This document shows, one piece after another, positions 6,800 to 25,703 of a stretch of DNA of 64,000 nt. Where the stretch lies: assembly GCA_029882355.1 (NCBI GenBank), contig JAOUKV010000012.1, positions 1 to 64,000 on the forward strand, read 5' to 3'. This DNA comes from Gammaproteobacteria bacterium (GTDB lineage Bacteria; Pseudomonadota; Gammaproteobacteria; SZUA-229). Position 1 is the first letter of the stretch, and every line of letters begins with the position of its first letter. The position numbers were made by a program, and so were the translations under genes. The notes under the pieces were generated by a model. The model made no database searches. It was given only the letters and a program-made list of their open reading frames with translations, and had not been told where the DNA came from.

Positions 6800-9358
6800 A
6801 TGAAACAAGCAGTTTGGAAGAGCGACTGGTTTGTCAGCCTCATCATTACTCTCATATTCCTTTTCTTTATACAGTCCGATTTCATACAAAGCATCGAACG
6901 TGATGCCTATGATTTTGGTGTACAGTCATCAAGTCGCACTGCCAGTGACAAAATTGCCATTATTGCTATTGATGATGAAAGTATTGCTAATATAGGTCGC
7001 TGGCCCTGGTCACGCAATATGCACGCACAAATGCATGAGCTACTCACCGATGGCGGTGCCAAAGCCATTGGCCAGACCGTCCTGTTTACAGAGCCGCAGC
7101 TCGATCCTGGCTTAGCATTTATTCAAGAACTTAAAACTACTTTTGAAAATAGTCGCATTGCCACCATTTCTGAGCATGCCGAAGAAATTTATCAGATAAA
7201 AGAATATCTCTCCTCAGCTGAAATCACGTTAGATAGTGATAAAACACTGGCAGAAAGCATGCAGCAAACAGGTAATGTTGTGCTGGCCATGCCCTTTGTC
7301 CTGGGTGAACCTATTGGCCGCCCTGATCAGGCGCTTCCTGAGTACGTACAGCGCAACAAACTACCAGAAAATAATATTATTGATGACCCGACTAACAATC
7401 CAGATGGCTGGCGACCTTTACCCATGGTTGAGGCTCTATCACCGATCCCAGCCATTGGCGAAGCCGCCTTAAATATTGGTTCACTGGTTAGTGTTCTTGA
7501 TGTCGATGGTGGCATACGTAGCGAACCATTGATCGTTGATTATTATGGAAATCTTTATCCTTCTGTCGCTCTAATTCTTGCAGCTAAAAGTCTAAACCTG
7601 GATATTAGCGACATCAAAGTAACCGTTAGTTCTGATGTTCAATTGGGTCGTCTAACAATTAAAACCGATGAAGAATCTCAGATGAAGACCTTCTTCTACA
7701 ACAGTAATGGCTATGAGAGTGCTTTCCAGATAGATTCATTTTACGATGTTATTCAAGGAAAAGTCCCCGCCAGCAAATACAAGGATAAAATTGTACTCAT
7801 AGGTGCAACTGCCTTTGGTGTAGGAAATACCATGGTAACCCCTATCGATCCAGCCATGTCGCCAGTAATCACTCTGGCTCACTCAGTCTCAAGCATTCTT
7901 AATGAGGATTTCTTTATTGAACCTGCATGGTCAAGTTATGCACAGTTAAGTGGGCTGTTGTTAGTCGCGCTTTATCTGATGTTGTTATTGCCACGCATGG
8001 GCGCTGCCGCTGGTTTTATCGTTACTATTTTCCTATTTACTGCGTTCTTTGTTACGCATTATATATTGATGACAACTCAGGGTATGTGGGTACAATTAAT
8101 GTCACCCTCCTTGCTGCTTGTTGCAGGCCATATCTTATTAACAACCAAACGCTACCTGCTCACCGAGCGAGGCAAAGCTCGCCTGGATATTGAATCCGCT
8201 GAAAGTAATCGCATGCTAGGTCTTTCTATGCAAGGTCAGGGGCAACTCGATATGGCATTCGAAAAATTCCGTAAACTGCCTGCTGACAAATCTGCACTAG
8301 AGCTCATATACAACCTGGCTCTGGACTACGAACGTAAGCGCCAATTCAATAAAGCTAAATCTGTTTACGATTACATTAGCGATCATGATGCTAATTTCCG
8401 TGATATTAAGACACGCTCAAATCGTGCTACAGCTATGGATGAAACCGTAATGCTCGGCGGTGGTAGCGGATCTTCACCCGGTGGCACTTTAATGCTTGAT
8501 GATGGCAGTATCGAAAAGCCCATGCTGGGTCGATATCAAATTGAAAAGGAATTAGGTAAAGGCGCAATGGGTGCCGTTTATCTCGGTAAAGACCCAAAAA
8601 TCTCACGCGTTGTCGCCATCAAAACTATGGCTCTCTCGCAGGAATTTGAAGACGATGAGTTAGAAGAAGTAAAAGAGCGTTTTTTCCGCGAAGCCGAGAC
8701 AGCGGGACGCCTCAATCATCCCAACATAGTCACAATTTTTGATGCCGGTGATGAACATGATTTAGCTTATATCGCTATGGAATATTTGAAGGGTTCCGAC
8801 CTCGTCAAATACATCAAGAAAGATAAATTGCTGCCAGTAACTAAAGTTCTTTCACTAATACAACAAACTGCTGACGGCTTAGGTTATGCGCACGGTTTCA
8901 ATGTTGTTCATCGTGATGTTAAACCTGCCAACATTATGTGGGATCCTGAAACCGATATAGTAAAAGTCACTGATTTCGGTATCGCACGTATCACTGATTC
9001 AAGCAAAACAAAAACGGGCATGGTATTAGGTACCCCCTCTTATATGTCACCTGAGCAATTAGCAGGCAAGAAAGTTGAAGGGCAGTCTGACTTATTCTCA
9101 TTAGGTGTGATGTTATTCCAGATGGTCACAGGCCAGCTTCCTTTTGTTGGTGATTCTATGGCTGCACTGATGTACAAAATTGCCAACGAAGCTCACCCTA
9201 ATCCAAACTCCATTAATCCTGACCTGCCAAGATGTGTTAGCGTAATTATCAACAGAGCTTTGCAAAAAGACATTGAAAAACGCTATCAAACTGGAAAGCA
9301 AATGGCTGATGACATTGCAAAATGTCTGAGAATTATAGCGGCTGAAAACAAGGCTTGA
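6800..9358 (+). CDS. CHASE2-domain transmembrane Ser/Thr protein kinase
   Basis: 852 residues. One N-terminal membrane helix (about 14-30) leads to an extracytoplasmic CHASE2 sensor (about 35-370), then three hydrophobic segments (about 375-450). A helical linker with TPR-like character (about 460-550) precedes a Hanks-type kinase domain (about 576-845). The kinase has the Gly-rich loop GKGAMGAVY, the Lys of VVAIKTM, catalytic HRDVKPANIMW, DFGIAR and the activation segment GTPSYMSPEQ, so all key residues are present and it should be active. The linker contains Thr-rich repeats (ETVMLGG and GTLMLDD) that could be phosphorylated docking sites. The stop overlaps the region before the PP2C gene, and an FHA gene follows. 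Confidence 0.93.
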   Translation: MKQAVWKSDWFVSLIITLIFLFFIQSDFIQSIERDAYDFGVQSSSRTASDKIAIIAIDDESIANIGRWPWSRNMHAQMHELLTDGGAKAIGQTVLFTEPQLDPGLAFIQELKTTFENSRIATISEHAEEIYQIKEYLSSAEITLDSDKTLAESMQQTGNVVLAMPFVLGEPIGRPDQALPEYVQRNKLPENNIIDDPTNNPDGWRPLPMVEALSPIPAIGEAALNIGSLVSVLDVDGGIRSEPLIVDYYGNLYPSVALILAAKSLNLDISDIKVTVSSDVQLGRLTIKTDEESQMKTFFYNSNGYESAFQIDSFYDVIQGKVPASKYKDKIVLIGATAFGVGNTMVTPIDPAMSPVITLAHSVSSILNEDFFIEPAWSSYAQLSGLLLVALYLMLLLPRMGAAAGFIVTIFLFTAFFVTHYILMTTQGMWVQLMSPSLLLVAGHILLTTKRYLLTERGKARLDIESAESNRMLGLSMQGQGQLDMAFEKFRKLPADKSALELIYNLALDYERKRQFNKAKSVYDYISDHDANFRDIKTRSNRATAMDETVMLGGGSGSSPGGTLMLDDGSIEKPMLGRYQIEKELGKGAMGAVYLGKDPKISRVVAIKTMALSQEFEDDELEEVKERFFREAETAGRLNHPNIVTIFDAGDEHDLAYIAMEYLKGSDLVKYIKKDKLLPVTKVLSLIQQTADGLGYAHGFNVVHRDVKPANIMWDPETDIVKVTDFGIARITDSSKTKTGMVLGTPSYMSPEQLAGKKVEGQSDLFSLGVMLFQMVTGQLPFVGDSMAALMYKIANEAHPNPNSINPDLPRCVSVIINRALQKDIEKRYQTGKQMADDIAKCLRIIAAENKA

Positions 9359-9366
9359 GGAACATT

Positions 9367-10191
9367 ATGAGTTTGAAAGGTAAAATTGAAATCACGGGGC
9401 AAACAGATGTTGGTTCTGTACGTGATCATAATGAAGATGCCATCAGCACTGAAACGTCATTGGGTCTTGCCATATTGGCTGATGGTATGGGTGGACACCG
9501 CGGCGGCGAGGTCGCCAGCGCCATTACCGTTAGCACCGTATTCGAAACCCTTTGTGAAAAATTAAAAAACGTCCCTGAAGGTGGCATTGAAGAAGCGACA
9601 GGTTACAGCCTGGAAAGCATGAATGTTCACAATGCCATCGCGCTTGCAAACAGCAATGTTTTTGAATCATCCAACGAAAATGCACAATATCGCGGTATGG
9701 GTACCACCGTGGTCGTTGTGTTATTTTACGACAACCGATTTACGGTAGCACACGTCGGTGATTCACGACTGTATCGAATCAGAGATGGCGTACTCGAGCA
9801 GGTTACCCGTGATCATAGCTTGATGCAGGAATTAGTCGACAGAGGTTTTTATACTCCTGAACAAGCCAGAAAATCGCTCAACAAAAACCTGGTCACTCGG
9901 GCTATTGGAATTGAGGAAAAAGTAGTCATTGATATTCAGGAAGATGCTACACAGGTTGGTGACATCTACCTACTATGCTCCGATGGCCTAAGTGACATGA
10001 TCGAAGATGATTTAATTCATGAAATCATCAAAAGAAACGCGGATAATCTTGAAATAGCAACAACAGAACTAATAGCAGCAGCAAACAAGCATGGCGGTAA
10101 AGATAATATTTCTGTGATTTTAGCGAGACCTTTAAAATCATTTCCTGCCAAAAATAGCTTGTTTTCTCGTTTTTTTGATTTATTCTCATAA
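9367..10191 (+). CDS. PP2C-family protein phosphatase
   Basis: About 274 residues, PPM/PP2C fold. It removes phosphate from Ser/Thr using two metal ions. Metal-binding motifs are visible in order: TDVGSVRDHNEDA (RxxNED type), ILADGMGGH, HVGDSRLY, LCSDGLSDMI and GGKDNISVI. I chose ATG 9367 because GAGGAA lies just before it; a TTG at 9355 would overlap the kinase stop (TGA 9356-9358). It has no membrane segment, so it is cytosolic. Its position directly after the receptor kinase makes it the likely antagonist of that kinase. Confidence 0.93.
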   Translation: MSLKGKIEITGQTDVGSVRDHNEDAISTETSLGLAILADGMGGHRGGEVASAITVSTVFETLCEKLKNVPEGGIEEATGYSLESMNVHNAIALANSNVFESSNENAQYRGMGTTVVVVLFYDNRFTVAHVGDSRLYRIRDGVLEQVTRDHSLMQELVDRGFYTPEQARKSLNKNLVTRAIGIEEKVVIDIQEDATQVGDIYLLCSDGLSDMIEDDLIHEIIKRNADNLEIATTELIAAANKHGGKDNISVILARPLKSFPAKNSLFSRFFDLFS

Positions 10192-10228
10192 GTATAATAT
10201 TACATATATAGTGCATTAAGGAACAAAA

Positions 10229-10945
10229 ATGGCAAAACTAATACTCAGCTTTGACGGCAAGCCTGTAAAAGAATTCGAGCTAGACCAGGAAATTATTACC
10301 ATCGGGCGAAAACCTGGTAATGATATCCAAATCGATAATCTCGCTGTCAGTGGTACTCACGCCAAGATCCTGACTATTCTCAACGACTCTTTTATCGAAG
10401 ATTTGAATAGTACAAATGGAACGCTAATTAATGGCCAACGTATTAGCAAACATGCTTTACATAATGGTGAAAAAGTTATCATCGGCAAACATTCTCTGGA
10501 ATATGTGAATGAGGCCGAAGAAGCTGGTGAAGGTGAATTTGAAAAAACCATGATTATTCGCCCGGGTGCAAACGACGCACCCGTTTCAAGTGAAACCAGC
10601 AAGAAACTCGAAAAATCAATTGGAAAAATTGCCGCCGAGCTTGCCTCTGCTGGTGCTGCAGGTGCAAGCAACCAAAGCGAAGCTTATTTGGAATTAATGA
10701 GTGGAGCCAATAGTGGTAAAAGAATGAAGATCACCAAGATCCTGACCACACTAGGTAGACCCGGCATACAAGTTGCCGCCGTAACACGGCGTCCATTAGG
10801 TTTCTTCCTGATTGTTGTCGATTCAGGCTCTTATGAAACACGCCCTATGGTCAATGAAAAAGAAGTCGGTACTCAAGCACACCCTTTAATGGACAGCGAT
10901 GTTATTGAAGTTGCTGGTGTAAAAATGGGCTTTTATCTCGAATAA
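10229..10945 (+). CDS. FHA-domain protein
   Basis: 238 residues. The N-terminal forkhead-associated domain (about 5-95) binds phosphothreonine. It has the conserved GRKPGNDI, SGTHAKI (Ser and His contacts) and LNSTNGTLING. An Ala-rich linker follows. A second, FHA-like but degenerate region lies at about 150-238, without the SxxH and NG contacts. Between them is EFEKTMIIRPG, a Thr-containing motif that the adjacent kinase could phosphorylate. A good AAGGAA site lies 5 bases before the ATG. A TATAAT at 10193-10198 might give an internal promoter. It is probably the adaptor of the kinase/phosphatase pair. Confidence 0.9.
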   Translation: MAKLILSFDGKPVKEFELDQEIITIGRKPGNDIQIDNLAVSGTHAKILTILNDSFIEDLNSTNGTLINGQRISKHALHNGEKVIIGKHSLEYVNEAEEAGEGEFEKTMIIRPGANDAPVSSETSKKLEKSIGKIAAELASAGAAGASNQSEAYLELMSGANSGKRMKITKILTTLGRPGIQVAAVTRRPLGFFLIVVDSGSYETRPMVNEKEVGTQAHPLMDSDVIEVAGVKMGFYLE

Positions 10946-11002: not shown

Positions 11003-12346
11003 TCACTTAACAAAAACAGCAATAGATTCCACGTGTTTGGTATGTGGAAACATATCCATAATTCCCGCATCGGTTAATCGATAACCCAATTCATTCACCA
11101 AAACACCAGCATCACGTGCCAGCGTGGCCGGATGACATGAAACATAAACAATACGCTCTGCACCCATTTTCCCCAAATATCTAAGCACAGCATCCGCACC
11201 TGAACGTGGTGGATCAAGCAATATTTTATTGTATTTTTTCTTCAACCAGGGTGCTGCTGCAATTTCTTCACTGTACAAATCGGCCATATGAAATTCAATG
11301 TTATCGATATTATTTTTAGCCGCATTTTCACGCGCTTTTTTCACCATAGCCAACGAACCTTCAACCGCCGTCAACTGCGCACATTGCCTTGCCATCGGTA
11401 AAGAAAAATTACCCAGACCACAAAATAAATCCAGTACCTGATCGTTTTCATTCAACTGCAAAAAATTAATGGCACGATCCATCATATCGCGGTTTATTTC
11501 AGGATTAACCTGAGTAAAATCAGAAGACTGAAATTCGACTCGTACATTATGTCTGGGTAATTCGTAATAAAGCATTTCCGGCTGCAAAGGATGCAAAGCC
11601 TCAAGCTCATCAGGTGCGCCAGCCTGCAAATAAATCACAAAGTCATGCTTGATGGCTAATTCACGCAAAATATCTCTATCTGCTTCCGGTAGTGGCACTA
11701 GATGCCTGAACACCAATACAGTCTGATTATCACCGACGGCTACTTCAATTTGCGGAATATGCTGATTCTGCTCCATTCGCGTAATAAACTCGGACAGCTC
11801 CGTCAGTAAAAGTCCCACGCTCGGATGCAAAACCTCGCACTGCTCGGTATCAGTGATAAATGCCGAACTACTCTCGCGAAAACCCACCATGATGCGCTTT
11901 TTTTTGTGCACATAGCGAACACCTAAACGTGCTTTATGTCGATAGCCCCAAAGTGGGCCTATCAATGGTGGCAGCAGATTCTCCGCCTTAACCTTACCAA
12001 TATGCTCCAGATGATCTAAAAAAGTTTTCTGTTTCAACTCAAGCTGCATATCTGTACTCATATGCTGCAAGGAACAACCACCACACATCTCAAAGGCACT
12101 GCATCTGGCTTCAACTCGGTCAGGCGATGCCTTTAATATCTCAACAGCCCGTCCTTCAGCAATATTCTTGCTCAGCTTGGTGTATTTAAATAAGACAGTT
12201 TCCCCCGCCAAAGCCTGATCAACAAAAACAATTCGATCATTAACATGGGCGATACCACGACCTTCTGCGGATAGCGACTCAATTTCAACCTGAACGGTTT
12301 CTTCTGGTAGTCGCGGAGAACGACGTCTACGACGATTATTAGGCAT
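11003..12346 (-). CDS. rlmD: 23S rRNA (uracil-1939-C5)-methyltransferase RlmD
   Basis: 447 residues. It uses S-adenosylmethionine to methylate U1939 of 23S rRNA. After a basic start (NNRRRRRSPRL) comes a TRAM RNA-binding domain (about 14-75). The [4Fe-4S] cluster cysteines are in ARCSAFEMCGGCSLQH, with a fourth Cys later at TEQCEV. The SAM domain has VLDLFCGLGNFSLPMA. The catalytic motif LDPPRSGAD and the Cys of YVSCHPATLARD are intact. The gene is 20 bases downstream of cysM. Linkage of rlmD and cysM to barA/gacS is seen in other gammaproteobacteria and recurs here. Confidence 0.95.
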   Translation of the reverse strand: MPNNRRRRRSPRLPEETVQVEIESLSAEGRGIAHVNDRIVFVDQALAGETVLFKYTKLSKNIAEGRAVEILKASPDRVEARCSAFEMCGGCSLQHMSTDMQLELKQKTFLDHLEHIGKVKAENLLPPLIGPLWGYRHKARLGVRYVHKKKRIMVGFRESSSAFITDTEQCEVLHPSVGLLLTELSEFITRMEQNQHIPQIEVAVGDNQTVLVFRHLVPLPEADRDILRELAIKHDFVIYLQAGAPDELEALHPLQPEMLYYELPRHNVRVEFQSSDFTQVNPEINRDMMDRAINFLQLNENDQVLDLFCGLGNFSLPMARQCAQLTAVEGSLAMVKKARENAAKNNIDNIEFHMADLYSEEIAAAPWLKKKYNKILLDPPRSGADAVLRYLGKMGAERIVYVSCHPATLARDAGVLVNELGYRLTDAGIMDMFPHTKHVESIAVFVK

Positions 12347-12366: not shown

Positions 12367-13254
12367 TTAGGCAGGGAAAACACCGGTGGACATATATCGA
12401 TCACCGCGATCACAGATAATTGATACGATGACCGCATTTTCCACTTCCCTGCTCAGCTGCAATGCGGCGGCCACAGCGCCGCCTGATGATATACCGCAGA
12501 AGATACCTTCTTTGGCAGCCAGATCGCGTGTTGTCTGCTCTGCGTCGGCCTGGCTAACATCCCGCGTGCTATCGACACGACTAGCTTCAAAAATACCGGG
12601 CAGATAAGCCTCTGGCCAGCGTCGAATACCAGGAATACTCGCGCCCTCCTCGGGCTGCACACCAACAATCTGAACATCCGGGTTCTTTTCCTTGAGGTAA
12701 TGGGAAACGCCCATAATGGTGCCTGTGGTACCCATGGCACTGACAAAATGGGTGATTTTACCATCGGTTTGCTGCCAGATTTCAGGCCCGGTACTAATGT
12801 AGTGCGCATTGGGGTTATCGGCATTATTGAACTGGTCAAGCACCTTGCCCTTACCTTCCTGCTGCATCTGTAGCGCCAGATCGCGCGCACCTTCGATACT
12901 TTGTTCCTGCGTTACCAGAATCAGTTCGGCACCGTAAGCTTTCATCGCCGCCCGGCGCTCCTCACTCATATTTTCCGGCATAATCAAAACCATATGATAG
13001 CCTTGAATAGCGGCGGCCATCGCCAGAGCAATACCGGTATTTCCGCTGGTCGCTTCTATCAAAGTGTCTCCGGGTTTAATATCCCCTCTCTTCTCCGCCT
13101 GAAAAATCATATTCAAGGCAGGACGATCTTTCACCGAACCCGCTGGATTATTACCTTCGAGCTTGACCAGCAAGGTATTTGTGGTCTCTCCCGCTAACCG
13201 CTGCAAACGAACCAACGGAGTATGACCAATATAATCAGCCAGTGTTTTATACAT
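12367..13254 (-). CDS. cysM: Cysteine synthase B (O-acetylserine sulfhydrylase)
   Basis: 295 residues, PLP-dependent fold II. It makes cysteine from O-acetylserine and sulfide or thiosulfate. The PLP lysine is in NPAGSVKDRPALNM (near residue 42), the substrate-binding loop is EATSGNTGIALA, and the phosphate-binding Gly loop is SAMGTTGTIMG. Length and the missing C-terminal extension fit CysM rather than CysK. It is transcribed with rlmD and is divergent from the TonB receptor operon, with about 115 bases between the starts. Confidence 0.94.
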   Translation of the reverse strand: MYKTLADYIGHTPLVRLQRLAGETTNTLLVKLEGNNPAGSVKDRPALNMIFQAEKRGDIKPGDTLIEATSGNTGIALAMAAAIQGYHMVLIMPENMSEERRAAMKAYGAELILVTQEQSIEGARDLALQMQQEGKGKVLDQFNNADNPNAHYISTGPEIWQQTDGKITHFVSAMGTTGTIMGVSHYLKEKNPDVQIVGVQPEEGASIPGIRRWPEAYLPGIFEASRVDSTRDVSQADAEQTTRDLAAKEGIFCGISSGGAVAAALQLSREVENAVIVSIICDRGDRYMSTGVFPA

Positions 13255-13371: not shown

Positions 13372-15510
13372 ATGTATTTTTACAAGCTGCATTCTGACAA
13401 CACTAAACGCCATAGATATTTACCCGCAATTACCTCAGCAGTAGCTCTAACACTCTCCATGCCACTACTGGCTAGCGAGGAAGACGTATTCTTTGAAATG
13501 CCCGTCGTGCTCTCTGCCAGCCGCCTGGAGCAACCTGTTTCAGAAACACCCATGGCCGTAACCAGTATCGACAGACAAATCATCGAAGCGAGCGGTGCCA
13601 GAACCATCCCGGAAGTTCTCAGACTGGTACCCGGCATCATTGTTGGTAATAGCAATAATGAATGGGGTGAAGAAGCCAAACCAGTAGTTGCTTACCACGG
13701 TCATACCAACCAGTTTTCAAAACAAATGCAGGTTTTGATTGATGGCCGCTCCATCTACGAACCACTACTCGGTGGTGTTAACTGGAATATGATCCCCATC
13801 AACATAGATGATATTGAACGTATCGAGGTCTCACGCGGCCCCAACGCTTCAACCTATGGCTCCAATTCATTTTTAGCCGTGATCAATATCATCACCCGAC
13901 ACGCCTCTGAAGATCCGGGACACTATATCAATCTCAAGGCGGGTAATCATGACATTGCCGACCTGACTTATCGATACGGAGGCAGTGGTGACGACCTTGA
14001 CTACAGGGTCACCGTGTCATCACAAAAAGATAACGGATTAGATGCCAGAAAAAACATCAGTAGCTATGATGCCAATGGCGGTGTAATAAATTTTCTGTAC
14101 TCAGATGAATCCGCTGACAACCATGATGACATCAATACAGGCGCCATAGATTACCGTGTTGATTACCAGCTTAACAACAGCAGCCATCTAACCTATCAAG
14201 GCGGTTATGGCAGAACAGGGCTGGATATTAACGAAAACTTCACCCTTAACGGCATAAGACCAGTGCGCGATAGTGACACCATCAATGCACACCAATTCTT
14301 AAAACTTGAAAATATCATAAACAACAAAAATTCTGTCGTCATGCAATATTATTACAACCTGCAGGACAAAACTGACCAGTCCCTATCAAAAATTATTCAG
14401 GTGGGTGGGGGCATTGATGATTTCACCTTAGATCTTGATTTTGGCCTTAAGTCAGAAAGACATAATCTCGAATTTACCCATTTCAATCAAACCACAGACA
14501 ATCTTCGACTGATATGGGGTTTAAGTGCTCAACAGGACATTTCAGAATCACCATTCTTCCTAACAAACCAGGGCACAATCAGACGAGAGACATATCGATT
14601 ATTTGCTAATGCCGAATGGCACATCAATCAAAAAAACCTGCTCAATTTAGGCGCACTGATTGAGGAAAATAAAACACTGAATACAGAGATATCACCCAGA
14701 CTGGCACTGATCCATAAATTCAATAATAAGCACAGCGTGAGAGCCGGTATTTCACAGGCAATTCGCAGTCCATTTATCGCTGAAGAATTTGGCAATACAG
14801 TTTTCAGTCATGAGTTAACCATTGGTGGCTCACCCATTGGTTTCAACCTTGTCGAACAACAGTCCGTACCCAATGACAACCTTGAGCATGAAACTATCGT
14901 CAGCCAGGAGATTGGTTATTTTGGTCAATTCGCAGATGATAGATTATTCCTCAATGCCCGTATTTTCCACGATCAACTCAATGATTTAATTCAAGCAGGA
15001 AGTTTTGCATCAACAATAGACACCTTTGATGGTGTAACAAGCATGCAGATAAATCGTGGTAGTACAGACGTAACTGGCATAGAAGTCGAATTTGACATTC
15101 GCCCTGATACTTCACTCCGTTTTTTCGGCAATGCCACTTATTTAGAGATAGAAAGTACCGATAATCCAAGAGATAGCTTATCCATAGAACTTGAAAACTC
15201 AGCACCAAAACGGTCAGCCTCACTATTAACCATAAAACAGTTTAATGAGCTCTATAGTGGTAGCTTAGGTATTTATTATGCTGGTGATATGTCGTGGCTA
15301 GATGTGCCCAACAGGGCTCCCAGCAGCTATACCACAATGGATCTTCGCCTTTCAAAATCAATCAGGCAAAGTGGCAGCACATCTAAACTATCACTAGTAT
15401 TAAAAAACTTACTGGATGAATACAACAACTATCACCAATTACCTGACCGCGGCCCACTCGTTGAGAACAACCTAACCGGTTACGTAGAGTATTCAGTTTT
15501 ATTTAATTAA
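13372..15510 (+). CDS. TonB-dependent outer-membrane receptor
   Basis: About 712 residues from ATG 13372. The frame extends upstream to a TTG at 13324, but the ATG gives a normal signal peptide (basic start, hydrophobic LPAITSAVALTLSMPLLA). The plug domain (about 35-165) reads VVLSASRLEQPVSETPMAVT and later QVLIDGRSIYEPLLGG, IERIEVSRGPNASTYG and FLAVINIITR, all typical of the family. A 22-strand barrel follows, ending in YVEYSVLFN with an aromatic terminal region. Energised by TonB, such receptors import chelates or vitamins. No substrate-specific motif was recognised. It is followed 33 bases later by a periplasmic binding protein gene and then the BarA kinase. Confidence 0.92.
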   Translation: MYFYKLHSDNTKRHRYLPAITSAVALTLSMPLLASEEDVFFEMPVVLSASRLEQPVSETPMAVTSIDRQIIEASGARTIPEVLRLVPGIIVGNSNNEWGEEAKPVVAYHGHTNQFSKQMQVLIDGRSIYEPLLGGVNWNMIPINIDDIERIEVSRGPNASTYGSNSFLAVINIITRHASEDPGHYINLKAGNHDIADLTYRYGGSGDDLDYRVTVSSQKDNGLDARKNISSYDANGGVINFLYSDESADNHDDINTGAIDYRVDYQLNNSSHLTYQGGYGRTGLDINENFTLNGIRPVRDSDTINAHQFLKLENIINNKNSVVMQYYYNLQDKTDQSLSKIIQVGGGIDDFTLDLDFGLKSERHNLEFTHFNQTTDNLRLIWGLSAQQDISESPFFLTNQGTIRRETYRLFANAEWHINQKNLLNLGALIEENKTLNTEISPRLALIHKFNNKHSVRAGISQAIRSPFIAEEFGNTVFSHELTIGGSPIGFNLVEQQSVPNDNLEHETIVSQEIGYFGQFADDRLFLNARIFHDQLNDLIQAGSFASTIDTFDGVTSMQINRGSTDVTGIEVEFDIRPDTSLRFFGNATYLEIESTDNPRDSLSIELENSAPKRSASLLTIKQFNELYSGSLGIYYAGDMSWLDVPNRAPSSYTTMDLRLSKSIRQSGSTSKLSLVLKNLLDEYNNYHQLPDRGPLVENNLTGYVEYSVLFN

Positions 15511-15543
15511 ATTGTTGTTAAAAAAAGGACGCACGCTTAATAA

Positions 15544-16479
15544 ATGGATATAAACCCACTCAACTGGACTCTTAGTACAGCGACAATCTTTTTCAGTCGC
15601 TTTGCTCTATTTGTCTGCCTTTTTGGTACGGCAACCAATACCTTTGCAGATCAACAGCCTATTATTATCAGTTCTGCTAGCAGTAACTACCAGAAATCAC
15701 TGGTGCAAAGCATCCTTTCAAACCTCAAAAACACAAATATTGAGGCAAGAACAATCGACATTGATCAAAAAAAATCTCCCGAAAAGACCAACCAATTAAT
15801 TATCAGCATCGGCAACGAAGCAGCATCACTTCTGAGCGAAAAGAACATAGCAGCACCACAATTACGCCTACTAACGAGCATTAACCAAAATAAAAAAACG
15901 CCCTCTATAAAAGGCTCATACTTATCAATGACTCAACCAGTATGCCAGCAGTTTTTATTGATAAGCTTGTTAAATGAGAAATGGAAAAATGTCAGTGTGC
16001 TTTTATCAGAACCAAATCCACCTCTGAGTCAGGAACTAAAAGAATGTGCTGCGCAAAACAAGCTGACACTACAACCTGTAATAATTAATCAGTTCGTAAA
16101 TGTCATTGATGCGCTCAATACCACTTTAAAAAATAGTGATGTGCTATTGGCGCTTCCGAACCCTTCTATTTATAACGCTAAAAACATTAAAAGCATCCTG
16201 CTCACTACTTACAGACACAGAGTACCGGTTATTGGTTTCTCGGAAAACTTTGTTCACGCAGGCGCTTTGGCGGCCTTACATAGCTCAACAGATCAATTGG
16301 CAAAACAAATCAAAGAGCTGATCATAAAACACTACAATAACGAAAACATAACAAAACATTATATTTACCCAAAGTATTTCGATATAGCAATAAACAAGGA
16401 CGTTGCCAAATCCCTTGGCATAATTATTCCAGACAGGAAGACACTAATAGACAAACTAAAGAATAACAATCATGACTAA
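15544..16479 (+). CDS. Periplasmic ABC-type substrate-binding-like protein
   Basis: 311 residues with an N-terminal signal or membrane segment (about 12-35, ending NTFADQQP). The rest resembles the uncharacterised periplasmic binding family of COG2984 type: alternating strands such as QLIISIGNEAASLL, NVSVLLSEPN, DVLLALPNPSIYN and VPVIGFSENFVHAGALAAL, which form the two-lobed fold. No ABC permease or ATPase is encoded nearby, so transport is unlikely to be its job. It overlaps the barA start by 8 bases (16472-16479). A role as the ligand-sensing partner of that kinase is inferred from this coupling only. Confidence 0.75.
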   Translation: MDINPLNWTLSTATIFFSRFALFVCLFGTATNTFADQQPIIISSASSNYQKSLVQSILSNLKNTNIEARTIDIDQKKSPEKTNQLIISIGNEAASLLSEKNIAAPQLRLLTSINQNKKTPSIKGSYLSMTQPVCQQFLLISLLNEKWKNVSVLLSEPNPPLSQELKECAAQNKLTLQPVIINQFVNVIDALNTTLKNSDVLLALPNPSIYNAKNIKSILLTTYRHRVPVIGFSENFVHAGALAALHSSTDQLAKQIKELIIKHYNNENITKHYIYPKYFDIAINKDVAKSLGIIIPDRKTLIDKLKNNNHD

Positions 16480-19153
16480 CTGGGGAATAAGAAAACAAAT
16501 TATCGCACTTGCACTGCTACCCGTTCTCGTCATTTCAATAATACTGACTAGTTACTTCACCTTGTCACAACTTGACTTTATTTCAGCATCACAGGTTCGA
16601 CATGGACATACCATTGCTCAGCAATTGGCGCCCGTTTCAGAATACGCCGTTTTCTCTGGCAATATAAACAGCCTGCTTCCTATACTGAACAATGCTCTTT
16701 CTGATAAAGATGTTGTTGATATTAAAATCACTAATACAAATAACGAAGTGCTTGCAGCAATTAGTGATTATGACCCTTCAGAAAAACAGGCGTCTATTTG
16801 GTACCAACTAACTACTGAAGAGCTAAGCACGTTCAGGGCACCCATCAAAACTCAAACACTAGACATTGAACCTCTAGATGAAAAAGACAATACAAATAAA
16901 AGTGATGACATAATTGGCCATATCGAAATTACTCTTACATCAATAAATATCAATGCAAAAAAACTTCAAACTGCAACCGAAGGCGGTCTTGTAACATTAG
17001 TTATTATCATCATAAGTATAATTCTTGCCCTACAATTAAGCCGACAAATTTCAAGCCCCATACAGAACCTCACTACCGCTGTTAAAAAAATATCTTCCGG
17101 CGACTATAAATCACGAATTAATCAACAGGCACAGGGCGAGCTAGGCATTCTTGAAACTTGCGTCAATATCATGGCTGAAGAGTTACAGAGCTCTCATGAA
17201 AATCTCGAAGCGAAAGTTGAGGAGGCAACCAAAGAGCTCAATGAAACAATGGAGGAATTAGAAGTAAGAAACATTGAACTAAATATGGCACGCAGCAGCG
17301 CTATAGCGTCAAACAAAGCAAAAACTGAATTCCTGGCCAGTATGAGTCACGAACTCAGAACACCTCTAGGCGGGATTCTTGGTTTCTCAGAATTACTCGA
17401 CAGTACAAGCCTGGAACCGCAGCAACGTGATTATTCAGAAATCATTAAAAAATCAGCCCATAATCTACTTCATATTATTGATGACGTACTAGATCTTTCT
17501 AAAATTGAATCAGGGAAATTAGAAATCCATTACTCAGAATTCAACATTATCGACATCATCGAAGATGTTGTCGATTTATTAATCACCATTGCCTACGAAA
17601 AAGATCTTGAACTTTTTTATCATATTGATAAAAACACACCACACATCATTAATAGTGACCCGGATCGTGTTAGACAAATCCTCATCAACCTAATTGGAAA
17701 CGCCATTAAATTTACCGAAAAAGGATCCATCTCATTACACATCAGTTCATCTCAGGAAAGCGACACATCTACGCAAATAATATTTTCCGTGGTAGATACT
17801 GGAATTGGTATGACCGCCTCACAACAAGAGCGTTTATTTAACGCCTTCACTCAAGCGGATAAAACCATAGAAAGAAAATTTGGTGGCACCGGGCTCGGTT
17901 TAGTTATATCAAAAAAACTTGCCAAACTTGTAAATGGCGACATAAATTTTAATAGCCAATATAACAAAGGATCAATTTTCACACTAAATATTTCTGTAGA
18001 AACCATAAAGCAACCACATGCTCCCAGTACCATTCTAAACAATAAAAACATATGCTTCATAGACCCACAATGCTGTTGCGAGAAAGGCATCCAGAGTATG
18101 TTGTTATCCTGGGGTTGCACCGTAAGCAAACATACGACAATGCCGGATGAATCATCAGGTTGTGACCTCATAATTGTCAGCATCTGCAGAAACAGTATGG
18201 AAAAAGAAAAGATAAAATCACTGATCCCATTGAAAAACACAAAGCCGCCAATCCTTGCGATTGTTAGCACCCGTTCGCACAAGGAGCTCATTGACATTAA
18301 AAACCAGGGCTTTACTGATGCTATTTTCCGATCATCAAAACGTGAATTTATTCATCATTCAATAGCGAATCTTATTAACCAGGATATTCTACCAATAGAG
18401 CCAAAAATACTGAATATCGCAGCACCTTTTGACTGGTCAGGTTTAAACGTTCTTATCGTTGATGACAACGACATCAATCTTAAACTTGCCGAAATAATTC
18501 TGACAAAAAACGGTGCTCAGGTATCTACCGCATCAACGGGACAGGAAAGTATAGAGTTATCAAACAATCAATTATTTGATCTAATATTCATGGATCTTCA
18601 AATGCCTGATATGGATGGCTATGAAAGCTCTATGCTGATACGTAAAAACAACAAAAACACCGTTATCATTGCATTGACCGCCAATGCGATGGCCTCTAGA
18701 GAATCAAGCAGAATAGATCAATGTGGGATAAATGATATTTTAATCAAACCCATTAATGAATCGAGCATTCAAAATATGATTGATCATTGGCTATTAGAAC
18801 AAACCCAGGATGGGATTGAATTATTCTCAAAAGAAGAAGCTAAAGAACTTGCAGCTGGCAACATCCAACTTGCCAACGAATTAACCAACATGCTGATCAA
18901 TGAACTACCTGAACACTTACAAAATATTAATGATGCATTCAAAAATAATGATATAGAACAACTTAGACTACACACACATAAATTACATGGCGCCACTCGC
19001 TGTGGTGGTGCCCTGGCACTAAGAAATGCTGCGCAACTACTGGAATCGAATATCGATAATAAAATTTTAGAAAAGTACGAATCAAGTACTCTTCTACTCG
19101 TAGATGAAATAGAAAGATTACTTAGTACCGATATAACCGATCTTATAATTTAA
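16472..19153 (+). CDS. barA: BarA/GacS-type hybrid sensor histidine kinase
   Basis: 893 residues. Domains in order: membrane helix (about 9-31), periplasmic sensor (about 32-165), second helix (about 170-190), HAMP, coiled coil, HisKA with phospho-acceptor H293 in ASMSHELRTP, HATPase (DTGIGM, GGTGLGL), a degenerate receiver (about 515-635, no phospho-Asp pattern), a true receiver with Asp near 708 in FMDLQMPDMDG, and a C-terminal Hpt with H836 in HKLHGATRCGG. This matches BarA/GacS in order and sequence, and the rlmD-cysM neighbourhood agrees. The known role is phosphorelay to UvrY/GacA, which drives CsrA-sequestering sRNAs. Its cognate regulator is not in the window. It is coupled to the upstream binding-protein gene. 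Confidence 0.9.
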   Translation: MTNWGIRKQIIALALLPVLVISIILTSYFTLSQLDFISASQVRHGHTIAQQLAPVSEYAVFSGNINSLLPILNNALSDKDVVDIKITNTNNEVLAAISDYDPSEKQASIWYQLTTEELSTFRAPIKTQTLDIEPLDEKDNTNKSDDIIGHIEITLTSININAKKLQTATEGGLVTLVIIIISIILALQLSRQISSPIQNLTTAVKKISSGDYKSRINQQAQGELGILETCVNIMAEELQSSHENLEAKVEEATKELNETMEELEVRNIELNMARSSAIASNKAKTEFLASMSHELRTPLGGILGFSELLDSTSLEPQQRDYSEIIKKSAHNLLHIIDDVLDLSKIESGKLEIHYSEFNIIDIIEDVVDLLITIAYEKDLELFYHIDKNTPHIINSDPDRVRQILINLIGNAIKFTEKGSISLHISSSQESDTSTQIIFSVVDTGIGMTASQQERLFNAFTQADKTIERKFGGTGLGLVISKKLAKLVNGDINFNSQYNKGSIFTLNISVETIKQPHAPSTILNNKNICFIDPQCCCEKGIQSMLLSWGCTVSKHTTMPDESSGCDLIIVSICRNSMEKEKIKSLIPLKNTKPPILAIVSTRSHKELIDIKNQGFTDAIFRSSKREFIHHSIANLINQDILPIEPKILNIAAPFDWSGLNVLIVDDNDINLKLAEIILTKNGAQVSTASTGQESIELSNNQLFDLIFMDLQMPDMDGYESSMLIRKNNKNTVIIALTANAMASRESSRIDQCGINDILIKPINESSIQNMIDHWLLEQTQDGIELFSKEEAKELAAGNIQLANELTNMLINELPEHLQNINDAFKNNDIEQLRLHTHKLHGATRCGGALALRNAAQLLESNIDNKILEKYESSTLLLVDEIERLLSTDITDLII

Positions 19154-19167
19154 TTTTTCAGCAGATC

Positions 19168-19193
19168 AAAAAATAGAAACCAGGCCTATTTTT
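19168..19193. terminator. Possible AT-rich bidirectional terminator
   Basis: AAAAATAG (19169-19176) and CTATTTTT (19186-19193) form an 8-bp stem around a 9-base loop between the convergent barA and acpS genes. The arm overlaps the acpS stop codon. The A and T runs suit termination on both strands, but the stem has little GC. Confidence 0.45.
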
Positions 19194-19563
19194 CCATAAC
19201 CACGAAGGCCGTCGCATAATGTTTTTCATCTGAAATGCTCAGCCAGGAGGCAACCACTCCCAACTGATCGGCACGAGCCTTCGCTGCCTGAGAAAGCTCA
19301 ACCAGTGGTCTACCCGATTCATCGTGACCTACGCCTATCATCTTCATTTCTATGCCTGCAGAAAAGCCCGTACCTAATGCTTTAGCTACGGCCTCCTTAG
19401 CTGCAAAACGCTTAGCTAGAAAACGTACCGGATAATTACTTTTACCATATTCCCGCATTTCACTTTCGCTCAGAATCCTTTCTGCAAACTTAACAGAATG
19501 GCGATCATGCATAAGTTGAATACGATTAATCTCAACAATATCCAGACCGGTACCAACGATCAT
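19186..19563 (-). CDS. acpS: Holo-[acyl-carrier-protein] synthase
   Basis: 125 residues, the normal length. It transfers 4'-phosphopantetheine from CoA to apo-ACP and so activates fatty-acid synthesis. The N-terminal [16 protein letters not shown] carries the Mg-binding Asp, and the second signature [19 protein letters not shown] carries the Glu and Lys of the active site. Its start overlaps the pdxJ stop by 4 bases (ATGA). The pdxJ-acpS order is conserved in proteobacteria. Confidence 0.95.
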
Positions 19564-20297
19564 GCACGCGCCTCATACATAGCCTGCTTATAAGCTACCA
19601 CTGACTGCTCCAGCCCCATAAACACAGCATCCGCAATAATTGCATGGCCGATATTCAACTCGCAGATAGCGTCCAACCCAGCAATTGCTTTAATATTTTG
19701 TAAATTCAAACCATGACCGGCATTAACCTGCAGCCCTATTTCATTGGCATAAATTACAGACTCTTTAATCTGTGCAAACAACTGCGCACGTTGCTCAGGC
19801 ATTTTTGCATCCGCATAATGTCCGGTATGAATTTCGATGACAGGTGCACCCGACTCCATTGCAGCATCTATTTGTTTTTTATCGGCGTCAATAAACAATG
19901 AAACTCTGATGCCCGCCCCAGCCAGTCGACTACAGGCATCCCGAACCGATGCCATATGCGAGACCACGTCCAAACCACCTTCCGTCGTCAATTCTTCACG
20001 GCTCTCCGGCACCAGACAGCAATCTTCCGGTTTGACATCCTCAGCGATCTTGATCATTTCATCAGTCACCGCCATTTCAAGATTCATTCGTGTCAACATT
20101 CGCGCTTTCAGATCATAAACATCTCTATCCTGAATATGGCGACGATCTTCGCGCAAATGCAGAGTAATACTATCTGCACCGGCCTGCTCTATTTGTAAGG
20201 CAGCATGTACTGGATCAGGGTAACGTGTTCCCCTCGCCTGCCGTAATGTCGCCACATGATCAATGTTCACACCCAATAAAATATTCTTTTGACTCAC
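19560..20297 (-). CDS. pdxJ: Pyridoxine 5'-phosphate synthase
   Basis: 245 residues, TIM barrel. It condenses 1-deoxyxylulose 5-phosphate with 3-amino-2-oxopropyl phosphate in vitamin B6 synthesis. Signatures: [18 protein letters not shown] at the N-terminus, [18 protein letters not shown] (substrate-binding His and Arg), the Glu of [11 protein letters not shown], and VNAGHGLN near the C-terminus. It is the first gene of the two-gene pdxJ-acpS unit. The spacer to the divergent cyclase gene is about 140 bases. Confidence 0.95.
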
Positions 20298-20438
20298 TCA
20301 TCTACCCCCTTTAATCACATCGCGAATATTACATAAAATCAACCAGTAATGTCTGAGTTATAGCTTTCAGTGTCTATTTTTGCTATTTTCCACCTACCAA
20401 CAATAAAAATAGCGCAGGAAGCGCATTCAGGAAGAAAC

Positions 20439-22661
20439 ATGCGAGAAATTCAACGTTATATTCGATACGCTCTGGGCCTTGCCCTGACACTGATGTTTTT
20501 GCTGCACGTCGGTGATAAATATCCACTGACGGCACTGACGGTGTTAGAAAATCTTACCTATGACGCGCGCCTCAAATTCACCGTACCCAATAAGCAGGAT
20601 AATCAGGTCATCATCATTGATATCGATGAAAAGAGCCTTGGTGAAATTGGCCACTGGCCATGGAATCGTAACGTTATTGCAAACATGAATAACCAGCTAT
20701 TTGACCACTATAAAATTAAAGAAATTGGTTACGACATGGTGTTTGCAGAAGAAGATATCGATGCAGGCGGTAAGCTGCTGGATCAGATGTCACAAGGCCC
20801 TCTCAAAGGAGACAAGCTCTTTCAAAAAGAATATCAAAAAGTTAGAAGCACTCTGCAACGCGATGAGCTATTTGCAGAAAGTCTTCGTAACAGGAAAACC
20901 ATCATGGGTGTTGTCTTTCTCAATGATGAAACTTCGGTAGCCAAAGGCAGCCTGCCAAAACCAGTGGCACATCTTGGTGACAGTATGAGGGGACGCATAG
21001 ATTTCTTCACACCTAAGGCCTATACCTCGAATCTTAAAATATTGCAGGATAGTGCCTTTGCAGGCGGTTTTTTTGATAACCCTGCACTTGATGATGATGG
21101 TGTCTTCCGACGTGTTCCCCTCCTGCAGGAGCACAATGGCCAGCTACACGAATCACTTGCCTTAGCACTGGCACGCACCGCCATTGGCTCACCCCAAATT
21201 GAACTCATCGTCGAGACCAATCCCGAAAATAACAATGAACTTTTGCTCGAATGGGTCAAAATTGGTGACCTACATATCCCTGTCGATGACAGAGGTAATG
21301 CACTCGTTCCCTATATTGGCAAGCAAAGAAGTTTTGACTATATCTCTGCTGCTGATGTAATCAATAAAACTGCCGACATCAATCGTCTCAAGGACAAAAT
21401 TGCACTTTTTGGTACTTCTGCACCCGGTTTACTGGACTTACGTACCACGCCGCTTGAGACATCCTTTCCTGGTGTTGAAATTCATGCCAATATCATTCAG
21501 GGCATTCTTGATCAACGTATCATGCAGAAACCTGGTTACACCATGGGTTTCGAATTTATACTGCTCGTCATATTAGGTTTATCTCTCACCGTCCTGTTAC
21601 CCAGGCTTTCAGCCACCTGGGGCGTGGTCGTTTCATTCTCTGTAGTCAGCCTGATTGTCGCCACTAACTTGTTTGCCTGGACCCAGCACAATACGGTGCT
21701 ACCCCTGGCCACACCTGTATTACTGACCGTTGTGTTGTTTACCCTGCAAATGATTTACGGATTTTTCATCGAATCACGAGGCAAGCGACATCTAGCACAC
21801 CTGTTCGGGCAATACGTACCACCCGATCTGGTCAATGAAATGAGTAAAAAAATGGAAGAGATCAATCTCGATGGTGAAATCAAAAATATGACGGTGCTCT
21901 TCTCCGATGTGCGTAATTTCACCACCATCTCGGAGAATACAGAACCTAAAGAACTCACCGAACTCATCAACGGCTTTTTGACACCGATTACCGAAATCAT
22001 CCATCACCAACGCGGTACCATCGACAAATACATGGGAGATGCCGTTATGGCCTTCTGGGGAGCGCCTCTAGATGATGATCAACATGCTCTACATGCAATG
22101 AATGCTGCCATGTTGATGACCGAACGCATGCACAACCTCAGGCAGGAATTCGCTGCCCGTGGCTGGCCTGAAATCAGGGTGGGTGTCGGCGTAAACACCG
22201 GTGATATGAACGTCGGCAACAAAGGCTCAGAATTCCGGGTTGATTACACCGTTCTGGGCGATGCGGTGAATCTCGGCTCACGACTGGAAGGTCTAACCAA
22301 AATTTACGGTGTCGATATCATCGTCGGTGAAGCCACCAAATACGCCGTACCTGAATATGAATACCGTGAACTTGATCTGGTTAAAGTCAAAGGCAAAGAT
22401 GAGCCTATTGCTATCTATGAACCCATCGGCCTGGTGGAAAATGTCGACAAATCAATTCGTCAGGATCTGAAACGCTTCAACATCGGCCTTAAACATTACC
22501 GGTCACAACATTGGGATGAAGCCGAACGGGAAATTTTTGCACTTAGCTCACTCGATAAAGATCGTAAAATTTATCAGATCTATCTCGATAGAATCATGCA
22601 GCATCGAAAAAATCCACCAGCAGCAGACTGGGATGGTTCCTTCACATTCACCAGCAAATAA
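20439..22661 (+). CDS. CHASE2-domain class III adenylate/guanylate cyclase
   Basis: About 740 residues from ATG 20439. An AGGAAG lies 5 bases upstream, and the frame's earlier start at 20370 lacks one. Layout: one N-terminal helix (about 10-28), an extracytoplasmic CHASE2 sensor (about 35-345), three hydrophobic helices (about 350-430), then a class III catalytic domain (about 475-655). Metal-binding aspartates are in TVLFSDVRNFT and in YMGDAVMAFWG. VGVGVNTGDMNVGN and DYTVLGDAVNLGSRLE complete the site. It probably makes cAMP, but cGMP cannot be excluded. The adjacent HD hydrolase gene suggests paired synthesis and breakdown. The sensor type is shared with the kinase at 6800. Confidence 0.93.
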   Translation: MREIQRYIRYALGLALTLMFLLHVGDKYPLTALTVLENLTYDARLKFTVPNKQDNQVIIIDIDEKSLGEIGHWPWNRNVIANMNNQLFDHYKIKEIGYDMVFAEEDIDAGGKLLDQMSQGPLKGDKLFQKEYQKVRSTLQRDELFAESLRNRKTIMGVVFLNDETSVAKGSLPKPVAHLGDSMRGRIDFFTPKAYTSNLKILQDSAFAGGFFDNPALDDDGVFRRVPLLQEHNGQLHESLALALARTAIGSPQIELIVETNPENNNELLLEWVKIGDLHIPVDDRGNALVPYIGKQRSFDYISAADVINKTADINRLKDKIALFGTSAPGLLDLRTTPLETSFPGVEIHANIIQGILDQRIMQKPGYTMGFEFILLVILGLSLTVLLPRLSATWGVVVSFSVVSLIVATNLFAWTQHNTVLPLATPVLLTVVLFTLQMIYGFFIESRGKRHLAHLFGQYVPPDLVNEMSKKMEEINLDGEIKNMTVLFSDVRNFTTISENTEPKELTELINGFLTPITEIIHHQRGTIDKYMGDAVMAFWGAPLDDDQHALHAMNAAMLMTERMHNLRQEFAARGWPEIRVGVGVNTGDMNVGNKGSEFRVDYTVLGDAVNLGSRLEGLTKIYGVDIIVGEATKYAVPEYEYRELDLVKVKGKDEPIAIYEPIGLVENVDKSIRQDLKRFNIGLKHYRSQHWDEAEREIFALSSLDKDRKIYQIYLDRIMQHRKNPPAADWDGSFTFTSK

Positions 22662-23735: not shown

Positions 23736-25703
23736 TTACTTTTTCTTAATTAAATTAAGGTATTCATCCTCAGTCAACACCTTAACGCCCTTTGCCTCTG
23801 CCGCTGCTATTTTAGTCATACCCACTTTTTCACCAGTGACAAGATAATCTGTTTTACCGGTTACAGAACTAGCCACTTTCGCACCCAGTTTTTTTGCTTC
23901 AGCCTGCATTTCTGGTCGTTTGCCATGAAGCATCGAACCAGTAAATACAATTTGTTTGCCCGCAACAGGACTTAGCAAACCAGATTCTTTTAGCTCTGTT
24001 ATTAGCGGTGTTTTTTCCAAATTAAAACCCAGTTCATATATCTTAAAAAACTGATCTCTAATTTTTTGCAAACCTTCGGTTATCTGCCTGGCCGTTATTT
24101 CAGCAAAGCCATCTATAATCACAAAATCATCAACCTTCAAATCAAAAATAGATTCAATATTGTGATGTTGTAAAAGTTTTTCCGCGACACCCAAACCCAG
24201 ACGATTGACTCCAAACGCAGCCAAAAAACGCCAATCTTCTATTTTTACTTTTCGACTGTTAGACAATGCTTCAATTAGATTTTTAACTGTCTTTTCTTTG
24301 TAACCTATATCAGCTAATTTCTCAGGATGCTTTTCTAATTGATAAACATCATAAACGCTTGAGATACCGTGTTCATTCAATATAGATATAGTCGCCGCAC
24401 CAAAACCATCATTATTACCCAGAGTATCAAAGAAATGGATAATGGTTTTTTCAATCTGATCTTTACAGGCAGTAGAATTTAGACAAAACAAATTATCATC
24501 TACCCACTCAAGCTTTGAGTGACAGGAAGGACATTCAATTGGATATTCTGGTGTAACTGGCTCAATAACTTCTTCTATCTTAGGTATAACCAGACCTGAG
24601 CGTACCAGACGGATAACAGCACCTTTACCAATACCTTTATCTCTCACCATGCCATAATTATGCGCTGTAGCCCGACTAATTTCCGCACCTGAAAGCTTTG
24701 TCGGCTCAAACTGAGCAACTGGCGTAACCTTGCCATTTCTTGACGTTTGCGGTTTGACGGAAACAACAACCACTTCTGCGGCTTCATCGTTAGACTTTAG
24801 CGCAATCTGCCAACGATGATGATGATTGGTTGCGCCCATGTATTTTTTTAATTCATCATCGGTGATTTCAAAAATCACACCATCAACATCATAATCAACA
24901 GAATTCCAGATTTCCTCGACCACGTCATCGTAGTCATCCATCAATTCAACCGCCAAACCTGACCATGAAGGCAGTGAAGCAAAAGGAAAAAATACTGCTG
25001 CTTTATCCCTAATGGCTTTGGCGGCGTGTTCTTCCAGTTCCTTTTCCTTGACCACACTCGCCTGAAAGTTTCTGGTATTTTCAAAATAGGGAGAAAGATG
25101 CTCTGAAAAATATTTTTTTGAAACAACGATTTCACCCGCGCCAAGACCACGAGTACCGTTACCTGCAACCGTTAAACCGCGCTCGAAAACACGACTGATA
25201 TCAGTTCCACGCTTACCATCACCGCGTGTATAAAATTTTTCACCATCATCATAAGCAGCAAAGCCGTCCAGTTTTGGCGTTAACCTAAACACTAAATCAT
25301 CAAAGTTTTTACCGATATCGTCGGCGGCCTTTCTGACTCTATTTATCCAGTTTTTTATACCTTCATCATCGTAAGTCTTATCGGTAGATAACATACGAGC
25401 AGGTAACTCGACCGTTTTTCCTTCAAAGCCAGCTTCCGGTTCAACAGCATGTAGAAAAGGGTGATCTGGTTCCCGATTCTTTAATTCGGCTAAAAATATA
25501 AAATCATATCCATCATCACTGACAATCTGGTCACCGCCACGATACAAGGCATTAGCCACTGTCAAAAAATCAACCAGCTCGGCAGTATCAAGTGATTTAA
25601 CATCCAGAATATTATTTGCGATATTTAAGATGCGTTGCTGTTGATGATCACTTAGAACCACATTTGAACGTTCTAAAATTTCTTTTTGATTTTTAGTAAA
25701 CAT
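23736..25703 (-). CDS. Divergent NAD-dependent DNA ligase (LigA-like)
   Basis: 655 residues. The LigA domain order is kept: Ia-like N-terminus, adenylation domain with catalytic K144 in KLDG and RGDG at 160-163, OB fold (GKVTPVAQFEPTKLSG), four-Cys zinc finger (CPSC ... CLNSTAC, about 400-425), helix-hairpin-helix repeats, and a C-terminal BRCT domain (about 575-655). However, the usual Glu two residues before the catalytic Lys is Thr (LTPKLDG), the SPTQxVG block is absent, and the NPRNAAAGSLRQ block reads NTRNFQASVVKEKE. It occupies the usual ligA position after smc and zipA. It may be the main ligase or a specialised paralogue. Confidence 0.8.
   Translation of the reverse strand: MFTKNQKEILERSNVVLSDHQQQRILNIANNILDVKSLDTAELVDFLTVANALYRGGDQIVSDDGYDFIFLAELKNREPDHPFLHAVEPEAGFEGKTVELPARMLSTDKTYDDEGIKNWINRVRKAADDIGKNFDDLVFRLTPKLDGFAAYDDGEKFYTRGDGKRGTDISRVFERGLTVAGNGTRGLGAGEIVVSKKYFSEHLSPYFENTRNFQASVVKEKELEEHAAKAIRDKAAVFFPFASLPSWSGLAVELMDDYDDVVEEIWNSVDYDVDGVIFEITDDELKKYMGATNHHHRWQIALKSNDEAAEVVVVSVKPQTSRNGKVTPVAQFEPTKLSGAEISRATAHNYGMVRDKGIGKGAVIRLVRSGLVIPKIEEVIEPVTPEYPIECPSCHSKLEWVDDNLFCLNSTACKDQIEKTIIHFFDTLGNNDGFGAATISILNEHGISSVYDVYQLEKHPEKLADIGYKEKTVKNLIEALSNSRKVKIEDWRFLAAFGVNRLGLGVAEKLLQHHNIESIFDLKVDDFVIIDGFAEITARQITEGLQKIRDQFFKIYELGFNLEKTPLITELKESGLLSPVAGKQIVFTGSMLHGKRPEMQAEAKKLGAKVASSVTGKTDYLVTGEKVGMTKIAAAEAKGVKVLTEDEYLNLIKKK

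Follow-up and report, generated by a model that had tools for sequence, protein, structure and literature searches.

Gene content of the locus

The window (i.e. the whole 64,000-nucleotide stretch analyzed here) carries, on the forward strand, a gene for a TonB-dependent outer-membrane receptor (TBDR; 13372..15510, with an ATG start at 13372 and a stop at 15510, the mechanical ORF beginning upstream at TTG 13324), one for a periplasmic binding protein of the ABC_sub_bind family (SBP, PF04392; 15544..16479), and one for a BarA/GacS-type hybrid histidine kinase of 893 aa (16472..19153). The TBDR and SBP genes are separated by 33 bases, and the SBP stop and the BarA start overlap by 8 bases (ATGACTAA, 16472..16479, forward strand). 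All three genes are confirmed here, with the coordinates, gap, and overlap given for them by an earlier, sequence-only reading of this DNA.

The triad is flanked by rlmD (11003..12346) and cysM (12367..13254) on one side, and by acpS and pdxJ (19186..20297) on the other, all on the reverse strand and identified with NCBIfam, which is the usual barA locus. In E. coli, barA adjoins relA and rlmD, but the interval to rlmD contains no annotated gene, and the upstream SBP and TBDR are lacking. A scan of the locus for promoters and terminators returned counts near those of shuffled sequence.

Other genes in the surroundings include a CHASE2-Ser/Thr protein kinase, a PP2C phosphatase, and an FHA-domain protein encoded consecutively at 6800-10945 (forward strand), a eukaryote-like kinase module that is conserved beside the barA locus across the family, and a CHASE2-guanylate/adenylate cyclase at 20370-22661. 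The NAD-dependent DNA ligase at 23736-25703 (reverse strand) has 25-28% identity to the syntenic LigA proteins of siblings and of other genomes of the family, among which identity is 64-79%, and the neighboring genes are 80-90% identical in siblings. LigA looks to have been replaced at its native site by a foreign ligase.

Receptor and binding protein

The receptor has a plug domain (13537-13872, forward strand; Pfam), and at E<=0.01 its Pfam domains are Plug and beta-barrel only, with no STN signaling domain at that threshold. Its best NCBIfam model is the TOL_0244 family, at 205 bits far below the cut-off of 645. Only 4 TBDR plug domains are present in this genome.

The SBP matches ABC_sub_bind at 44 bits (cut-off 25.9), and its N-terminus forms a signal-peptide-like helix; PF04392 is also matched by all 27 of the aligned relatives. 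AlphaFold predicts a type I binding-protein fold (mean pLDDT 86), whose best solved matches are VC_1101 (3LKV), CD0873 (6HNI/6HNJ), and SP1069 (3LFT), with TM about 0.6. These solved relatives bind Phe, Tyr, and Trp (PMC6816091). The coupled SBPs have a common signature, [DN]xxIYNxxTIKxILLTxYRxR, where the solved aromatic-amino-acid binding proteins have a shorter loop; in the window it covers residues 202-226 (LALPNPSIYNAKNIKSILLTTYRHR, 16147..16221, forward strand; from alignments). In the alignments, this strongly conserved stretch coincides with the binding loop of the solved relatives and, together with the binding-protein fold, suggests that the coupled SBP still binds a ligand. Although the solved relatives point to Tyr, Phe, or Trp, we assign no ligand to the window SBP, because its loop is different and it carries Asn206 at a position that is Asp in at least 90% of relatives. 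A search of the PHROGs library with the SBP gave no match.

No ABC permease or ATPase gene lies next to the triad, as had been noted from the sequence, and the genome extends this observation: a search for BPD_transp_2 permeases gave 0 matches here and was positive in 12 of 14 genomes used as a control. The known kind of ABC importer for the ABC_sub_bind family therefore appears absent from this genome. Only 2 ABC_sub_bind genes are found in it, and the second (contig C38; L076:560-4348) adjoins a gene for a HAMP-PAS-HisKA-REC hybrid kinase, without a TBDR.

The kinase and its sensor domain

The kinase presents the full BarA/GacS domain order, i.e. a transmembrane segment followed by Cache sensor, HAMP, HisKA, HATPase, REC, and Hpt. 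Specifically, Pfam places on the forward strand a periplasmic sCache_4 sensor (residues 42-164; 16595..16963), a HAMP domain (17036..17188), the HisKA dimerization/phosphoacceptor domain (17318..17515), the HATPase_c catalytic domain (17657..17998), a receiver domain (18449..18781), and an Hpt domain (18878..19123), with alignment assigning D708 to the receiver and H836 to the Hpt domain. The phosphotransfer residues H293, D708, and H836 are invariant among 24 aligned kinases. The best NCBIfam model is E. coli-type BarA (PRK11107, 629.6 bits, below the equivalog cut-off of 890), and the cut-offs for LuxQ (301 vs 1200 bits) and TorS (377 vs 676.5 bits) are missed. The sensor profile matches the solved periplasmic domain of GacS (5O7J, E 4.6e-7). 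Because of the rlmD locus, the domain architecture, and this sensor match, the kinase is a BarA/GacS orthologue that lies outside the narrow enterobacterial equivalog PRK11107.

The predicted structure of the sensor, of moderate quality (pLDDT 79.5), resembles Cache/PAS folds, and its matches include a LapD orthologue (4U64, TMt 0.73) and CitA. The LapD match, to the periplasmic output domain, may bear on what the SBP does, since LapD binds a protein, LapG, through this domain. The SBP might accordingly be a constitutive periplasmic inhibitor or scaffold, acting on BarA as YfiR does on YfiN, so that the state of the envelope or of the TBDR is sensed and not a bound small molecule. Asn206 in the window SBP would also suit such a role. 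We consider this quite improbable, however, given that a binding-protein fold is predicted with good confidence and that the conserved stretch at the binding-loop position suggests a ligand is still bound.

Conservation of the triad across Gammaproteobacteria

The sequence-only reading treated the triad as a feature of a single genome and proposed a search for the same three-gene order near rlmD/cysM elsewhere. This search shows that the order recurs in the genus, the family, and the class, so the triad, an operon-like cluster, is broad in the class, although it is missing from E. coli. Within the genus and family, cysM followed by TBDR-SBP-BarA is found at nearly every locus with a long enough contig.

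At the level of the class, we surveyed 276 genomes drawn evenly from the Gammaproteobacteria, each at least 90% complete, which yield 86 Pfam matches to sCache_4. By Pfam alone, an ABC_sub_bind gene lies just upstream on the same strand of at least 51 of these 86, and this is the conservative count; with family HMMs, which were built from family and first-pass loci and so are partly trained on the loci counted, the figure is 61 of 85. Among the 86 places, 68 encode BarA-like hybrids (defined by a profile score >500); the SBP is directly upstream in 49 of them, and the whole TBDR-SBP-BarA triad is present in 39. The 44 families with BarA-like kinases include 32 with the SBP-BarA pair and 25 with the triad. 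A scan of 84,980 genomes for DNA encoding the SBP motif K[SNG]ILLT[TS]YR returned 36 loci, mostly from uncultured Gammaproteobacteria and including Thiohalobacter, Ectothiorhodospiraceae, and Thiotrichales; all 36 have a same-strand match to the BarA profile, and 31 have a TBDR. With recurrence in the family, the survey, and the scan, a gene order confined to this genome was rejected.

Most of the family loci sit at the conserved rlmD/cysM...acpS/pdxJ site and are co-inherited, so the gene order could in principle be neutral synteny, or else chance. Two observations make this very improbable. First, the association extends beyond that site: at the syntenic barA locus, the SBP accompanies 27 of 39 BarA-like kinases and the triad 22 of 39, and away from it the SBP accompanies 22 of 29 and the triad 17 of 29, with gene order changed in others (TBDR-BarA-SBP in L178, BarA-SBP in L179). 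Second, the genome has so few ABC_sub_bind genes and plug domains (2 and 4, respectively), yet the order recurs in the genus, family, and class, which places it far above chance. Given the non-syntenic loci, neutral synteny is disfavoured.

The association is also variable in its parts. No SBP is found on either side of 17 of the 68 BarA-like kinases, and a search beside the 49 SBP-BarA pairs found no TBDR for 10 of them; in some of these a contig end may be the cause, and the TBDR may not always be needed in cis. The SBP gene runs 4 or 8 bases into the kinase gene in 27 of the 49 pairs, which suggests that the two are translationally coupled.

The binding protein follows the sensor domain

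The SBP is also found with sCache_4 proteins that have other outputs. For example, an SBP and a TBDR lie upstream of sCache_4-HAMP-PAS-GGDEF-EAL proteins at two loci (L131 and L138), which are the Pfam-confirmed cases of what is, judging by domain content, a c-di-GMP version of the SBP-sensor unit, and the SBP precedes simpler sCache_4 kinases at five others (L141, L152, L160, L164, and L183). There are, in addition, natural single-chain fusions of ABC_sub_bind to HisKA-HATPase (L204) and to GGDEF-EAL (L201 and L203, one of this pair being PAS-GGDEF-EAL). At four further loci (L106, L107, L110, and L113), the SBP lies upstream of a protein that may be of the c-di-GMP kind, as its low BarA-profile score resembles those of L131 and L138; no TBDR is seen at L113.

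Evolutionary distances of the SBP correlate with those of the sensor (r = 0.75), the kinase core (r = 0.68), and the TBDR (r = 0.84), and the partial correlation between SBP and kinase is 0.77 given cysM distances and 0.47 given rlmD distances. Because outputs swap, natural fusions exist, and SBP distances track the sensor slightly better than the kinase core, the conserved link on this sequence evidence is that of the SBP to the sCache_4 sensor, whatever the output. The earlier suggestion that the binding protein is a sensor partner thus gains support from adjacency elsewhere, swapped outputs, fusions, and correlated evolution. Gene order and correlated distances can also be explained by co-inheritance of an operon.

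Two histidines of the GacS pocket, His97 and His133, are reportedly essential to signaling by the P. aeruginosa protein (PMC8639471). In a MAFFT mapping onto GacS, reasonably sure at the position-97 column only, no SBP-coupled sensor has both histidines, and position 97 varies widely among these sensors (Glu, Arg, His, Lys, Asn, Thr, and others); three SBP-free kinases (L168-L170) retain both. A mapping with hmmalign was discarded, as its register was shifted and GacS itself was mis-mapped. The absence of this histidine pair fits an SBP-coupled sensor that does not itself bind one conserved small anion.

A proposed route for the signal

We regard it as fairly probable that the TBDR, SBP, and BarA form one sensing unit, in which the receptor imports a ligand and the binding protein captures it, docks on the Cache domain of BarA, and shifts the phosphorelay. 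Specifically, TonB-driven import across the outer membrane would deliver the ligand to the periplasm, where the orphan SBP would capture it; the SBP docked on the Cache domain would then shift the kinase/phosphatase balance of the H293-D708-H836 phosphorelay, which would reach UvrY/GacA and then the Csr/Rsm system, changing CsrA activity. This reading builds on the genes and their deeply conserved order, on the SBP-sCache_4 pairing, and on a genome that lacks a BPD_transp_2 permease; from these we infer that the SBP contacts BarA, that the TBDR imports the ligand, what polarity the signal has, and that UvrY is its target. E. coli BarA works without an SBP.

Alternatively, the TBDR and SBP could be a nutrient-scavenging pair that feeds an unlinked transporter, with the co-expressed BarA sensing something else directly, e.g. 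short-chain acids. In E. coli, the periplasmic domain of BarA itself does mediate a response to acetate and formate (PMC8639471), and the correlation of TBDR with SBP distances is the tightest of those above. We nevertheless find this unlikely, since no BPD_transp_2 permease was found in the genome, the SBP pairs with the sCache_4 sensor even where the output is GGDEF-EAL, natural fusions join it to histidine kinase and GGDEF modules, and no SBP-coupled sensor in the mapping has the GacS H97/H133 pair.

On the output side, CsrA is present in this genome. A clear UvrY/GacA was not found in the assembly, where the two best matches have 33-34% identity and each lies beside another histidine kinase gene; of 6 sibling species, 5 encode a UvrY (48-50% identity). 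The usual uvrY neighbor, uvrC, was likewise not found in this assembly (98.5% complete), in a search run without a positive control. Because uvrC was also not found and the siblings have UvrY, the uvrY-uvrC stretch is likely missing from the assembly; loss of UvrY with rewiring of the kinase was set aside, an assembly gap being simpler. In the class set, a strict UvrY threshold is passed by 39 of 46 genomes with SBP-BarA vs 89 of 213 without a BarA-like kinase.

Evolutionary history of the association

In a quick maximum-likelihood tree of 73 kinases, for which the root was not inferred, presence of the SBP requires 12 changes, at least 8 of them forced by well-supported branches, vs 17.6 in shuffles. 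In the branch of E. coli BarA, most rows (9 of 11) have no SBP and the other two retain it, and loss of the SBP in model lineages appears likely from this distribution. A further step would be that input through a TBDR-supplied SBP is the ancestral mode of BarA/GacS in Gammaproteobacteria, with E. coli BarA and Pseudomonas GacS derived by loss of the receptor and SBP; we put this forward tentatively, and with some doubt. If true, such losses in model organisms would be one reason why the GacS signal stayed elusive there.

Relation to known systems

The Gac/Csr cascade governs biofilm formation, virulence, biocontrol, and carbon storage. For a 2020 review, "The Evanescent GacS Signal" (PMC7695008), the ligand of GacS is still unidentified, and the proposal made there is that a small molecule binds the Cache pocket directly; neither TonB nor solute-binding occurs in the review's text. 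Full-text searches of a set of open-access papers found no published account of SBP or TBDR coupling to BarA/GacS. Binding-protein-coupled hybrid kinases are already known, and BarA/GacS would be a new one among them, class-wide and with a TBDR. An SBP whose gene accompanies that of the kinase lends itself to purification and ligand screening, which makes the question of the long-sought BarA/GacS signal directly testable, and the answer could inform work on BarA/GacS kinases that have no SBP. The pairing also suggests that sCache_4 can dock a protein, beyond offering a pocket for small molecules.

The window kinase resembles the tripartite hybrid kinases BarA/GacS (LetS, VarS) in its domain order, its rlmD-side locus (as in E. 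coli), its GacS-type Cache sensor, and its phosphorelay residues, and differs from them by the upstream SBP and TBDR, which are absent at E. coli barA, and by pocket histidines that are not kept. Among proteins of the same Pfam family as the SBP, TrpX, CD0873, and VC_1101 (PF04392; best structural matches 3LKV, 6HNI, and 3LFT) share about 16-20% identity with it, but the window SBP has the IYN...ILLTxYRxR signature instead of the shorter loop, and its genome differs in having no BPD_transp_2 permease. The TBDR transducers FecA and FpvA are likewise outer-membrane receptors linked to signaling; however, the window TBDR is without an STN domain, and there is no sigma/anti-sigma pair in the cluster. 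In YfiR-YfiN and LapG-LapD, too, a soluble protein of the periplasm acts on a HAMP-containing sensor of Cache/PAS-like type, and LapD is among the fold matches, but YfiR and LapG are not binding proteins of the SBP kind, and the outputs are c-di-GMP proteins, of which the triad has its own versions (L131 and L138).

Functional parallels are LuxP-LuxQ and TorT-TorS, where a hybrid kinase senses by means of a periplasmic binding protein encoded alongside it. The triad has this same layout, i.e. an SBP gene linked to a hybrid kinase with no cognate ABC importer found, while LuxP-LuxQ and TorT-TorS have another sensor domain, another binding-protein family, and no TBDR. By analogy, the best reading is that the triad would work as LuxP-LuxQ and TorT-TorS do, but with an additional receptor in the outer membrane, without being a member of those families.
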